From Cellulomonas sp. 73-145 (lineage in GTDB: Bacteria; Actinomycetota; Actinomycetes; Actinomycetales; Cellulomonadaceae), in assembly GCA_001898185.1 (NCBI GenBank), contig MKTI01000004.1, forward strand, positions 124,001 through 188,000: 64,000 bases of DNA. The letters run 5' to 3'. The position numbers and the translations under genes are program-made. The notes under the pieces are model-generated. The model had not been told where the DNA came from, did no database searches, and worked only from the letters and a program-made list of their open reading frames with translations. Shown here in pieces: positions 20,105 through 24,388 of this stretch (positions are counted from its first letter, which is position 1; the number at the start of each line of letters is the position of its first letter).

Positions 20105-21055
20105 TCAGACGGCCGCGAGCGCGTCCACCAGGCGCCGGACGCTCGACGTCAGGCCCCAGCGCTGCGCCAGCTCGACCACCCGGTCGGCGTCGGCGACCAC
20201 GCGCGGCAGCTCGTCGGGCACCTGCTCCACCGGGGCGTCGCGGGCGACCCGCACCACCGCGGGTGCCACGGCGAGGTAGTCGGCGGCGTCGGTCAGCCGT
20301 CGCCGGGCCGCTGGCGCCAGCGCGGGGTCGGACCGGTCCCGCGCCGCGAGCACCCCCGGCAGGTCACCGAACCGGGCGACCAGCTGGGCGGCCGTCTTCT
20401 CCCCGATGCCGGGGACGCCGGGCAGCCCGTCGCTCGGGTCGCCCCGCAGCACGGCGAGGTCGGCGTAGGCCGCGCCCGACGAGACGCCGTACCGCTCGGC
20501 GAGCATGCTCTGGTCCACCACCAGCAGGTCCTTCACGCCCTTCGACGGGTACAGCACCCGGACGCGCGCCTCGTCGTCGACCAGCTGGAACAGGTCCCGG
20601 TCACCCGTCACCACGTCCACGGCCGCGCGCTCGGCCGCCGGCCGGGCCAGCTCGCGGGTGACCAGGGTGCCGATCACGTCGTCGGCCTCGAAGCCCGGGG
20701 CGCCGACGCGCGCGACGCCGACCGCCGCCAGCACCTCGACGATCACCGGGATCTGCGCCGTCAGCGCCGCGGGGACCTCCTCGACCCAGCGCTCACCGTC
20801 CTGACCGGCCACCCGGTGCGCCTTGTACGTGGGGATCGCGGCCACCCGGAAGGCCGGCCGCCAGTCGTCGTCCCACGCCGCGACGAGCCGGGCGGGCCGG
20901 TGGTCGGTCACCAGCCGGGCGATCATGTCCAGCAGCCCGCGCACGGCGTTCACCGGCGTGCCGTCCGGCGCCTTGACGCTGTCCGGCACCCCGAAGAACG
21001 CCCGGAAGTACAGCGACGCGGTATCGAGCAACATGAGCGACGCACGACCCGACAT
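20105..21055 (-). CDS. 5'-3' exonuclease (PolA N-terminal/FEN-like)
   Basis: This 316-residue stand-alone flap/exonuclease resembles the N-terminal domain of DNA polymerase I. Conserved acidic metal-binding stretches include MLLDTASLYFRAF, AWDDDWRP, GFEADDVIGTLV and VVTGDRDLFQLV. The H3TH helix-hairpin-helix is GDPSDGLPGVPGIGEKTA. It removes RNA primers or flaps. The first ~12 codons (MSGRASLMLLDT) use less GC-rich codons than the rest. A second, GC-rich version of the same start lies 1.3 kb upstream (22301-22351), so this 5' end was probably supplied by an inserted islet. Confidence 0.9.
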   Translation of the reverse strand: MSGRASLMLLDTASLYFRAFFGVPDSVKAPDGTPVNAVRGLLDMIARLVTDHRPARLVAAWDDDWRPAFRVAAIPTYKAHRVAGQDGERWVEEVPAALTAQIPVIVEVLAAVGVARVGAPGFEADDVIGTLVTRELARPAAERAAVDVVTGDRDLFQLVDDEARVRVLYPSKGVKDLLVVDQSMLAERYGVSSGAAYADLAVLRGDPSDGLPGVPGIGEKTAAQLVARFGDLPGVLAARDRSDPALAPAARRRLTDAADYLAVAPAVVRVARDAPVEQVPDELPRVVADADRVVELAQRWGLTSSVRRLVDALAAV

Positions 21056-21120
21056 GGGCCCACGCTAGGTGATCGCCTACGCGGAGTGCCGAACGCCGCG
21101 GGGAGCCGCGGTCCTCGCGG

Positions 21121-21489
21121 TCACGCAGGCAGCCGGTGAAGGCGAAGAGAGGGCGCGTCGTCGGCAGGTTCGAACCGCCATGACCGGAACGGCCGACTAT
21201 CGATCGAGAACGAGCCCGCGCTGAACGTCCGGAGCCATGCGGCGAGGTGCGGCCCGGCTGTGAGGTCACCGCTCCAGAAGCGACCTCGGGGGGTGCAGAC
21301 CTCGATGTAGAAGACGCGCTCGTCCTCAGACGTCAGGCGCAACGTCAGGCCGCGGACATCCGGTGCGGAGACCTGCACGAATGGCAGCCCGACCGCCCCA
21401 TAGGCGTCCCACACACCGAAGACTGCGCGTTCAGCAACCCCAGCAGCCGTCGCGATCTCGCGGAGTGTCGCTCCGGCGGACGATGCCAC
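21121..21489 (-). CDS. Hypothetical protein in islet
   Basis: The protein has 122 residues and no recognised family. The N-terminus (ATLREIATAAGVAERAVFGV) could be a short helix-turn-helix. The rest is a mixed alpha/beta stretch with LTLRLTSEDERVFYIEV and FWSGDLTAGPHLAAWLRTF. It is soluble, with no signal or membrane segment. Base composition is less GC-biased than in neighbouring genes, consistent with acquired DNA. It lies just upstream of the exonuclease gene on the same strand, a 65-bp gap. Confidence 0.6.
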   Translation of the reverse strand: MASSAGATLREIATAAGVAERAVFGVWDAYGAVGLPFVQVSAPDVRGLTLRLTSEDERVFYIEVCTPRGRFWSGDLTAGPHLAAWLRTFSAGSFSIDSRPFRSWRFEPADDAPSLRLHRLPA

Positions 21490-21681
21490 GCCGCGAATCT
21501 ACGCGTCACTGTCCCTAGGGACCGTGGCTCGGTCGTGCCGGGCGCCGACCGAAGATGCGGGTTCGGCGCGCTGCAGCGAGGTGCTGCCCAACAGGAGGAG
21601 CTGTCCGGGGTCACCCTGGGCCGAGACGCTACCGAGAGTGGCCGTCGCCATGCCGCATCCGGACCCACGAGACTGAGCGCC

Positions 21682-22209
21682 ATGTCGACGGCCGACCATC
21701 AAGGCCCCAGCCCTGCGCCGGGGCCCTGGCCAGTGCCCGCGCGCAGAACGAACGAGCGCCTCCTCGGCGCCCTCGGCTGGACCATCGAGGTCGCTCTCGG
21801 CCTGTTCGCCGGTGCCGGTGCCCTCTCGGTGTCCTCAGCACCAGCAAGGACTCTCGCCGACATACGCGCCGGCGGGAGCGCCTCGGCGAGCGCCGCGATA
21901 TTCGGTGCGGCCTCGTGGTGTCCCGCGATCCCGGGCACGGGGATGCTGCGGCTCACGCAGGACGGAGCGACGTACGACCAGGGCCTGCGCAGGCGTCTTC
22001 CGCTCGACCGCCTGACAGCGGTCGCCGCGCACGCGCCCGGAACCGTCTCCACAGCCGTGCGACTGCCACACCGGTGGTGGGTCCTCGACCTCGACGGACC
22101 CGCGGGGGCGGGCAGCGTCGCTGCACTCCCGGAGGAGCTTGCCCTGCTCGGCGGCCTGGCCGGCTGGCCACCGCCGCTCGGGTGGCCGGTCGGCGAGCCT
22201 GCGCCGTAG
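21682..22209 (+). CDS. Hypothetical protein with possible membrane segment, in islet
   Basis: The protein has 175 residues from the ATG at 21682; the in-frame extension upstream looks non-coding. Residues ~30-50 (LGWTIEVALGLFAGAGALSV) are hydrophobic and might form one membrane helix. The remainder has a MLRLTQDGATYDQGL turn and a WWVLDLDGP strand, loosely recalling PH-like or bacterial PH/YdbT-type small domains. No family is assigned with confidence. It is divergently arranged with the other islet gene and followed by a short hairpin at 22275-22291. Confidence 0.55.
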   Translation: MSTADHQGPSPAPGPWPVPARRTNERLLGALGWTIEVALGLFAGAGALSVSSAPARTLADIRAGGSASASAAIFGAASWCPAIPGTGMLRLTQDGATYDQGLRRRLPLDRLTAVAAHAPGTVSTAVRLPHRWWVLDLDGPAGAGSVAALPEELALLGGLAGWPPPLGWPVGEPAP

Positions 22210-22274
22210 GCGCCAACCCGGTCCACGCGCGGCCCAGCGGCAACGCTGGTCGCTGAACCTCCTGAGCCTTGCTC

Positions 22275-22294
22275 GGCACCGAGATGGTGCCTTT
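22275..22294 (+). terminator. Short hairpin with T-run
   Basis: GGCACC (22275-22280) and GGTGCC (22286-22291) form a 6-bp stem with a GAGAT loop followed by TTT. It is a plausible intrinsic terminator for the 21682-22209 gene, 65 bp past its stop. It is AT-richer than other terminators in the window. Confidence 0.5.
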
Positions 22295-22300
22295 GGAGAG

Positions 22301-22351
22301 CTACGACGACGCGGTGTCCAGGAGCATCAGCCGGTCGGCGCGGTCCGTCAT
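22301..22351 (-). pseudogene. Displaced 5' end of a 5'-3' exonuclease gene
   Basis: Seventeen codons read MTDRADRLMLLDTASS and stop. The segment RLMLLDTAS parallels the first residues of the intact exonuclease (SLMLLDTASLYFRAF). Its ATG overlaps the stop of the upstream small membrane gene (ATGA), the usual arrangement for coupled genes. This suggests it was once the real start. Translation now ends after 16 residues. Confidence 0.6.
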
Positions 22352-22545
22352 GGCGTGGAGTCTGGCACCCGGGTCCCACGTCGGGCCCGGCGCCCGCGCA
22401 CAAGGTCGGCGGACGCGGCCACGACGCCCATGAGGACCGTGAAGGCGATGTCCTGCGGGCCGTGCACGACGGCCCGGACGACGACGACGATCACCACGAT
22501 GAGCGCGCCCTGGCCCAGAGCGTGCAGCACGTCGGTCCGCATCAT
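22348..22545 (-). CDS. Small two-helix membrane protein
   Basis: The protein has 65 residues: a short cytoplasmic start (MMRTDVLHALGQG), two hydrophobic helices (GALIVVIVVVVRAVV and DIAFTVLMGVVAASADLV) and a basic tail. No family is recognised. The stop overlaps the ATG of the exonuclease remnant, indicating a former two-gene operon with the exonuclease. No strong ribosome site is visible, so the exact start is uncertain. Confidence 0.55.
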   Translation of the reverse strand: MMRTDVLHALGQGALIVVIVVVVRAVVHGPQDIAFTVLMGVVAASADLVRGRRARRGTRVPDSTP

Positions 22546-22594
22546 CCGGCCATCGTGGCGTGCCGGACACCCCCGCGGGGCCGGTTCGGCGGCC

Positions 22595-24388
22595 TCAGCC
22601 GGCAGCGTTGAGGTCGAGCTGGGTGTCGACGACCGCGATCACCGACCACGTGCCACCGTCGGCGTCGGTCAGCTGGTAGGTCGGCACCAGCACGGAGGCG
22701 CCGGACGGCAGCGTGGTGACGGCCAGCCCGAGGCGGGCTGACGTGATGGTCACGTGGCGGACCGGCCATGCGATCGCACTGCCCGCGGACGGGGTGGTCG
22801 GCGCCACGGGCGGGACGGTGGACGACGGGCCTCCGGTCGGCTCGTCACCGGGCGTGACGGCCGGTGCCGGAGCGATGACACCCGGACCGGCGGTCGCTGT
22901 GCCAGACGTCGCTGTGCCGGACGTCGCTGTGCCGGACGTCGCGGTGCCGGACGAGCCGGATCCCGTGGACGCGGACGGCGCTGTGCCGGACGACGCAGCG
23001 GCGGAAGGCGCCGTGACGGACGGCTGCACCTGCGACGGGACGGCCCCCGAGGTCGCCGACCCCGTGCTCGCACCATCAGGCGGCGGGACCGCCCCCGACG
23101 TCGCAGAGCCGACCGCCGGTTCCGCCGCACCGCTGTCCACCTGCACGCCGCCGGCCGCCATCGGCATCGGGCCGGCGCCGAACGCGCCGAACCGCGGGTC
23201 GTTGAGCCGTTCCACCGCCGCGGCCGGGCTGATCACCTGGTAGCGACCCAGGTCGACCAGCGGCGCGAGCGGTCCCCACAACGACTGGACGCCCGAGCCG
23301 ACCAGGGTGGCCGACCACGTGACGCCGGTCAGCTGACCGTCCACCACCTGCGAGAACCTCACGGTCTCGCGACCGGCCGTCGGCACCGTCGCACCGGTGC
23401 CGTCGCGCACGGGCTTCTCGGGCTCGCCCACCTGGACCGTCGCGCCGGTCAGGTCGACGCCGACCGCGTGGAACAGCGCCCGCACCTTCGCCACGGCCGC
23501 ATCGCCGGTCGGTGCCGCCGCCGCGTTCGGGCCGCACACCGAGGCGTTGGCCGCGGTCTTCTCGCCGGTGCACGTCCACGGGTCCCAGGCGGGGTCGGAG
23601 TAGGAGAGCGTTGCCATCCCGTCCCCGGAGAGGGTCAGCACGGCACCCTTGCCGTCCAGCGTCCCGACGGTCCAGGTGCCCCACTGCGCGCGCGGCTCCC
23701 CCGGCACCCCGAGCACCTTGGCCGCTCGACGGACGGTGTCGGCGCTGACCACGGACGCGGCGTCGAACGCCCTCGCCGTCCCGGTGCCGCCCGTGGTGGA
23801 CAGGCCGGACGCGGTGAAGACGGTCCGTGAGCCCCACCAGCGGCCCGGTGCGGGCACGGCGATGGACGACGACGAGGCGCTGCCCGATGCCGCGCCGTTC
23901 GCCGGCGCTGCCATGTCGGCCCCCGCGCGCTGCGGACCACCGACCTGCGCACCACCGAGCGCGATCGCCGGCAGCGGTGTCGCACCGGCCGTCGAGCTGC
24001 CGCCCGTGCGGCCGCCCAGCGCATACGCCCCGCCGCCGACCACCGCGAACGCCGCCACGGCCGCCGCGACCTGCAGCCATCGCGGGGCAGCCGTCGGCCG
24101 CCACCGACGTCGAGCCGCCTCAGCGGCCGGGCCCGAGCCCGTCGCCCCGTCCGTGCGGCCGACGTCGACACCCGTCGCGGCGCGCAGCGTCGCTGCCAGG
24201 CGATCCGCGTCCGGTGCCGCGTCGGCAGCGGGGTCGGCGGCGCGCAGCCGGTCGAACGCGGGCTCGCCATCGAACGCCAGGTCGCCGTCGAACGCCGGGT
24301 CGTCACCGACCGTCGGCTCGGGCGCCGACGGCACGTCCGGGGGGACCGACCCGTCGGACGGCGTCCAGCCCGGCAGCTTCTCGCTCAT
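22595..24388 (-). CDS. Putative anti-sigma-type membrane protein downstream of ECF sigma gene
   Basis: The protein has 597 residues from the ATG at 24388 (GGAGG upstream). An acidic cytoplasmic region of ~120 residues repeats short Asp-rich units (DPAFDGDLAFDGEPAFD). A single membrane helix follows (LQVAAAVAAFAVVGGGAYAL), then a large extracytoplasmic part: a folded region (about 200-430), a Ser/Thr/Gly/Pro linker with a TATSG pentapeptide repeat (15-bp DNA repeat, 22900-22950) and a C-terminal ~80-residue domain. Position after an ECF sigma gene suggests it controls or senses for that sigma. The canonical HxxxCxxC zinc anti-sigma motif is absent, so the role is inferred from context only. 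Confidence 0.7.
   Translation of the reverse strand: MSEKLPGWTPSDGSVPPDVPSAPEPTVGDDPAFDGDLAFDGEPAFDRLRAADPAADAAPDADRLAATLRAATGVDVGRTDGATGSGPAAEAARRRWRPTAAPRWLQVAAAVAAFAVVGGGAYALGGRTGGSSTAGATPLPAIALGGAQVGGPQRAGADMAAPANGAASGSASSSSIAVPAPGRWWGSRTVFTASGLSTTGGTGTARAFDAASVVSADTVRRAAKVLGVPGEPRAQWGTWTVGTLDGKGAVLTLSGDGMATLSYSDPAWDPWTCTGEKTAANASVCGPNAAAAPTGDAAVAKVRALFHAVGVDLTGATVQVGEPEKPVRDGTGATVPTAGRETVRFSQVVDGQLTGVTWSATLVGSGVQSLWGPLAPLVDLGRYQVISPAAAVERLNDPRFGAFGAGPMPMAAGGVQVDSGAAEPAVGSATSGAVPPPDGASTGSATSGAVPSQVQPSVTAPSAAASSGTAPSASTGSGSSGTATSGTATSGTATSGTATAGPGVIAPAPAVTPGDEPTGGPSSTVPPVAPTTPSAGSAIAWPVRHVTITSARLGLAVTTLPSGASVLVPTYQLTDADGGTWSVIAVVDTQLDLNAAG

Follow-up and report, generated by a model that had tools for sequence, protein, structure and literature searches.

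Why does the 5'-3' exonuclease-family gene (exo) of Cellulomonas sp. 73-145 have two beginnings, an intact one and, 1.3 kb upstream, a fragment of 17 codons that ends in a stop? The locus lies in a stretch of 64,000 nucleotides (the window, to which all positions refer), part of a 260-kb contig in a draft genome of 3.87 Mb and 14 contigs, labelled here G000. It contains a 1293-bp islet (21023..22315, including the right copy of a 9-bp core) within the first codons of exo, which carries a substitute in-frame tip for the gene, and the same footprint with other cargo occurs in four more Cellulomonas genomes. The islet may have arisen by conservative insertion of a small circular cassette, with the recombinase acting in trans or since lost, a reading to which we give about an even chance.

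The exo gene (20105..21055, minus strand) encodes 316 amino acids (aa), matches PF02739 (E 3.4e-44) and PF01367 (E 1e-18), and has orthologues of 97% and 95% identity in G027 and G034, respectively, the two closest genomes. Its N-terminus, with islet-borne start codons, reads MSGRASLMLLDTASLYF. The second beginning (22301..22351, minus strand) was described in a first-pass annotation as a 17-codon fragment whose ATG overlaps the stop of a small open reading frame (ORF), and this is what is found: the fragment reads MTDRADRLMLLDTASS followed by a stop, is recognized as an exo tip by a profile (E 4.1e-9), and overlaps the end of a hydrophobic ORF of 65 aa (22348..22545, minus strand). The 9 bases CGACGCGGT that were said to bracket 1.3 kb are indeed identical at both ends, at 21014..21022 (left copy, on the exo side, forming the crossover block) and at 22307..22315 (right copy, both on the plus strand), with a spacing of 1293 bp.

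The islet is absent from both sister genomes, G027 and G034. Their flanks are continuous by blastn, the small membrane ORF runs straight into exo via an ATGA overlap (2/2 sisters), and the exo start at these empty sites is MTDRADRLMLLDTAS; an empty site in close relatives was the check that the first-pass annotation had suggested. In a column-by-column comparison, the fragment with its upstream DNA equals G027 through ACCGCGTCG (88 columns, 0 mismatches), so that the fragment is the original exo start through the core, and the exo side equals G027 from the block onward (101 columns). Both junctions together show 0 mismatches in 180 columns; the target is therefore complete, and the exo stretch that was compared shows no donor DNA. 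In respect to G034, the same comparison gives a few substitutions. The present exo codons before the block (MSGRASLMLLD, 21023..21055, minus strand) differ from both sisters and, judged by these alignments, are codons that arrived with the islet, in keeping with the proposal that the insertion displaced the exo start and that codons of the element replaced it. Two features of gene-restoring elements are present in the window: a target fragment at one end with the regenerated gene at the other, and a short identical core (9 bp) at both ends.

The footprint recurs in the genus. The exo tip pattern matched 75 of 81 Cellulomonas genomes, which form the examined set, and the DNA upstream of exo (74 genomes and the window) covered 1.3–9.6 kb, with a median of 8.0 kb and less than 3 kb in 4. 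A displaced exo tip is present in 5/75 genomes, by a position matrix and by a profile hidden Markov model (HMM) trained on the 70 non-displaced genomes alike. The inserts measure 1293 bp in G000, 503 in G014, 484 in G022, 441 in G012, and 315 in G030. The HMM E-values of the five displaced tips range from 1.6e-16 to 4.1e-9, followed at E 0.083 by another tip of G022, its second, which is broken. With a single blastn rule for a duplicated 5' tip, 4/75 exo genes are positive and 0/284 neighboring genes (Fisher p 0.0018); the four do not include the islet of the window, which does not satisfy this stricter rule. A looser scan for tip duplication was noisy (22/288 other genes and 6/75 exo genes) and was superseded by the stricter rule. 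The search at other exo genes that the first-pass annotation recommended gave the islet DNA, among the 81 genomes of the genus, in its own genome only; its footprint with other cargo is found elsewhere. Empty-site relatives exist for three of the other cases: G088 for G012, G080 for G030, and G098 and G018 for G022.

In G022 (L025 / L084) the DNA upstream of exo consists of a promoter-like element with a tip, a cargo ORF, a broken tip, a spacer, and then a promoter-like element with a tip and exo. With three successive exo tips, the second broken one among them, the arrangement is read as two insertions made one after the other at the same site. Outside the genus, 193 of 221 genomes of a family sample matched the tip pattern with up to 3 mismatches and no tip pair near exo was seen; in the 11 out-of-genus genomes with at least two same-strand matches, the extra ones are all on other contigs or at least 20 kb away. 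In an order sample of 396 genomes, 155 matched with up to 2 mismatches (some of the same genus) and none had two tips. The patterns used for family and order would miss truncated tips such as the window's own.

Each of the four smaller inserts contains a single cargo ORF in the direction of exo, of 125, 148, 82, and 82 aa in G012, G014, G030, and G022, respectively, whose start overlaps the new stop of the displaced tip by 4, 8, 4, and 7 nt (4/4 small inserts). At the other end, the cargo meets the new exo start with a 17-nt overlap, an 8-nt overlap, or a 1-nt gap in three cases, while in G022 the further insertion follows. The cargo of G030 and G022 belongs to one family (236/282 columns identical) and the nearest relatives, G080 and G098, are empty, which reads as two gains or as one gain followed by losses. 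The G014 cargo is present in 1/81 genomes. The G012 cargo family occurs in 5/221 genomes of the family sample (G012, G079, G219, G118, and G148), of which only G012 has a displaced tip. It lies ~0.22 kb before exo in G079 and ~0.84 kb before exo in G219, a member of another genus, where the ORF beside it is presumably CrcB-like, named from its sequence; in G118 and G148 there is no exo within the 8 and 12.5 kb fetched around the cargo. These placements show that the exo locus attracts this cargo also in genomes whose exo tip is not displaced, and cargo and exo may be functionally linked. In respect to base composition, guanine plus cytosine (GC) at third codon positions is 0.76–0.77 for the cargo of G000 (122-aa gene), G012, G022, and G030, 0.68 for the G014 cargo, and 0.82 for the 175-aa gene of the window, while it is 0.97 for the window's exo and mostly at least 0.9 for the long upstream genes among those listed. 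Because these values lie below exo and the long upstream genes, the islet genes are probably foreign. None of five cargo proteins (the window's two, those of G014 and G030, and P0010 for the G012 family) matches a PADLOC model of anti-phage defence or a PHROG.

The window's islet contains the two unknown genes that had been noted in it. A gene of 122 aa (21121..21489, minus strand) has the orientation of exo, and a gene of 175 aa (21682..22209, plus strand) is divergent from it. Both are nearly orphans. Among 5.8 billion proteins, the 122-aa protein has one other homologue (P0005, 81% identity) and the 175-aa protein three (75–94%), on contigs of 0.9–3.9 kb; the cluster of the 122-aa protein comprises 4 members from 3 contigs of up to 351 kb. 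The contigs of P0001 and P0005 measure 3.9 and 3.7 kb. The AlphaFold2 (AF2) predicted local distance difference test (pLDDT) score of the 122-aa protein is 81.5. The leader of the P0001 ORF resembles the antisense of a start of the 122-aa type, which makes it likely that the divergent pair occurs elsewhere too. In the genus, the 122-aa protein is restricted to its own genome save for one marginal match (E 0.009), and the islet DNA gives only pieces of 23–91 bp (E 5e-5 or weaker) in the 80 other genomes. The 175-aa family was not found in genome contigs, nor were A2, A1, and A4 in viral contigs, nor either islet protein by tblastn in phages and plasmids. Against plasmid records, the DNA of 20900–22500 gave the exo match only (2 records, query up to base 139).

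A promoter-like -10 hexamer, TAGCGT (21062..21067, minus strand), is placed 6 nt before the new exo ATG. Hexamers of this type are found 4–10 nt before the exo start in 45/69 non-displaced genomes and in 1/1656 control windows, with a motif chosen partly after the sequences were seen. The hexamers suggest that exo transcripts are leaderless in the genus.

Within the islet there is a candidate for a decayed earlier exo tip (21562..21618, minus strand). In exo sense it reads LLLLGSTSLQ-RA (21600–21562), and GGTAGCGT is located upstream of it (21633–21626). The profile match (21618–21574) is weak, with E 3.6 over all DNA searched or ~0.008 scaled to the islet, and plain local alignment does not separate it from the background (138/752 chunks score equally high). 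Set against the window by eye, the P0001 ORF seems to be without ~100 nt (21567–21666) that span both the inner tip and GGTAGCGT. If the inner tip is real, the window's islet is possibly the product of two serial insertions.

We infer from these arrangements a variant of the gene-restoring island. A small circular cassette would enter by conservative site-specific recombination at the 9-bp core in the exo tip, with a recombinase that would act in trans or have been lost later. In each of the small inserts, the cargo ORF would be translationally coupled to a leader formed by the native exo promoter and tip, so that the cargo would be expressed from the exo promoter, and the tail of the cassette would restart exo; in the window's islet, the promoter-like -10 comes with the new exo tip instead. 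Site-specific recombination is favored because the joining is conservative at short blocks, the crossovers fall within ~27 bp, insertions stack serially, and the target is restored.

CGACGCGGT is not rare as a 9-mer (15 copies in the window, 5.8 expected) and would mean little if taken alone; it is significant because of the empty site, the G027 flanks being continuous across exactly CGACGCGGT. Several observations weigh against such a cassette. The searches brought up no further copy of the window's islet, and there is no close empty-site relative for G014. The crossover blocks occupy columns ~79–87 in G000, 85–101 in G030, and 88–105 in G012; by this alignment they shift by up to ~27 bp, and a single fixed core or integrase site is unsupported. 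The shifted blocks belong to cases with different cargo; in G030 and G022, which share their cargo, the tips end at the same codon. No common sequence was noticed when the islet ends were compared by eye. As the first-pass annotation had remarked, no integrase is visible: a scan of the islet proteins gave no match to a recombinase or integrase domain, so that this feature of gene-restoring elements is missing. PF00589 and PF00239 are not matched on the exo contigs of G000 (260 kb), G012 (11 kb), and G030 (196 kb), and PF00239 is not matched anywhere in G022 and G030; the window's own genome has one PF00239 recombinase. The nearest PF00589 match on the same contig as exo is 121 kb away in G022 (an open frame of 143 aa) and 214 kb away in G014. 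Moreover, the placement of the G012-family cargo in G079 and G219, without a displaced tip, fits an ordinary hotspot gain too.

Some of these points suit the main rival, illegitimate recombination mediated by microhomology, which we consider possible and yet clearly doubtful. Here, at DNA uptake, a linear donor consisting of an upstream gene and the 5' end of exo would be joined at microhomology inside the tip; a homologous anchor in exo may or may not take part. The shared blocks are short (9 bp in the window, up to ~18 bp in others) and vary in position, no recombinase is near by, and donors with cargo beside exo do exist, as seen from the G012-family cargo at most 1 kb from exo in 3/5 carriers. 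An anchor on one side is, however, expected to leave a donor tract or a deletion, and neither is present in the window, where G027 is matched by the fragment as far as the block and by exo from there onward. The confinement of the crossovers is also unexpected in such joining: all displaced tips stop inside a span of ~27 bp, even though exo stays conserved, and with it homologous, beyond that span. Campbell integration is a further route: a circle would enter by one RecA-type crossover between the homologous tips, with no need of a site-specific enzyme. The alignment of old and new tips over 27–60 bp in four cases would agree with it; in the window, identity at the crossover is limited to 9 bp, and 4 of the 12 bp before it are mismatched, which seems too little for ordinary homologous recombination, and we regard this route as very improbable.

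The islets might instead be remnants of a larger integrase-bearing element at exo, a prophage or a conjugative one, whose central part was deleted together with the integrase. We think this improbable. Classical elements do leave the same footprint, a displaced fragment and a regenerated gene (PMC4383910), and PF00589 matches show that tyrosine recombinases are present elsewhere in 10/10 genomes examined. Against a larger element, the genome-wide tip pattern, which misses truncated tips, found no second tip more than ~0.5 kb from exo in the 75 genus genomes, none of the 155 matching genomes of the order sample had two tips, and the pattern was not found in viral contigs. In addition, 4/5 inserts hold just one ORF, compact and fitted to the end of the displaced tip. 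An assembly artefact or an ancestral gene structure is hardly credible: the window does come from a draft of 14 contigs, but the same footprint is present in other assemblies, the sisters have the empty site, the cluster of the 122-aa protein is spread over several contigs, and both islet genes have homologues on other contigs.

The conservative cassette insertion with a recombinase in trans invites comparison with known systems. Integron gene cassettes are small and mostly single-gene, are inserted serially at one site, and have their recombinase encoded elsewhere. The exo inserts are likewise small, mostly single-gene, and serial at one site, with a recombinase elsewhere in the favored reading; they differ in having the tip of a housekeeping gene as target. 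Rfam gave no match in 20900–22700 at E 0.1, a search that included no attC model, and the integron integrase (IntI) was not specifically sought.

In gene-restoring islands of the Islander type, a transfer RNA or transfer-messenger RNA (tRNA/tmRNA) target is split, with a displaced fragment at one end and a regenerated gene at the other (PMC4383910). The exo islets share the split target, the fragment, and the regenerated gene, and differ in hitting the 5' end of a protein gene, in their size (0.3–1.3 kb), in containing 1–2 orphan genes and no integrase that was found, and in the varying place of the crossover. Another parallel is SpyCI, phage-like chromosomal islands at the 5' end of mutL, where a conserved attB is placed at the start of a DNA-repair gene, the gene is separated from its promoter, and one variant gained a new promoter (PMC4129442, PMC4689407). 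Insertion at the beginning of a DNA-repair gene is common to both; unlike SpyCI, which has an integrase and phage-type genes and switches mutL off, the exo islets give a new in-frame start and no mobility gene was found in them. Recombination hotspots next to core genes are the few places where accessory genes accumulate and are replaced (PMC5635113), while the exo islets have their border inside the core gene, which is reconstructed. Among the matches listed in a literature search with limited terms, none described a gene-restoring islet in this exonuclease gene.

A broader proposal, which we put forward tentatively and consider rather doubtful, is a family of tip-swapping cassettes for which the first exo codons would serve as both attachment site and promoter trap; each cassette would bring one orphan gene, attach it to the promoter and start of exo, rebuild exo with its own tail, and stack serially, by means of a recombinase in trans. 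If the cassette reading is true, very small genes can join a bacterial genome without an integrase of their own and leave the target unharmed through a new start. It would also explain the immediate expression of single orphan genes, and exo in this one genus would be a locus at which such a gain can be caught and tested. For annotation, it would be a warning that a short ORF in front of a core gene can be a start that has been displaced.

Two minor features were observed as well. In G033, the exo match (G033:C1:1110235-1111227) consists of two pieces that overlap in the query. Both lie in one open frame, and a small duplication that keeps the frame is possible. In the window, short tandem repeats of the GTCGCTGTGCCGGAC type (22895–22950) lie in the gene that precedes the small membrane ORF, and their copy number differs in G027.
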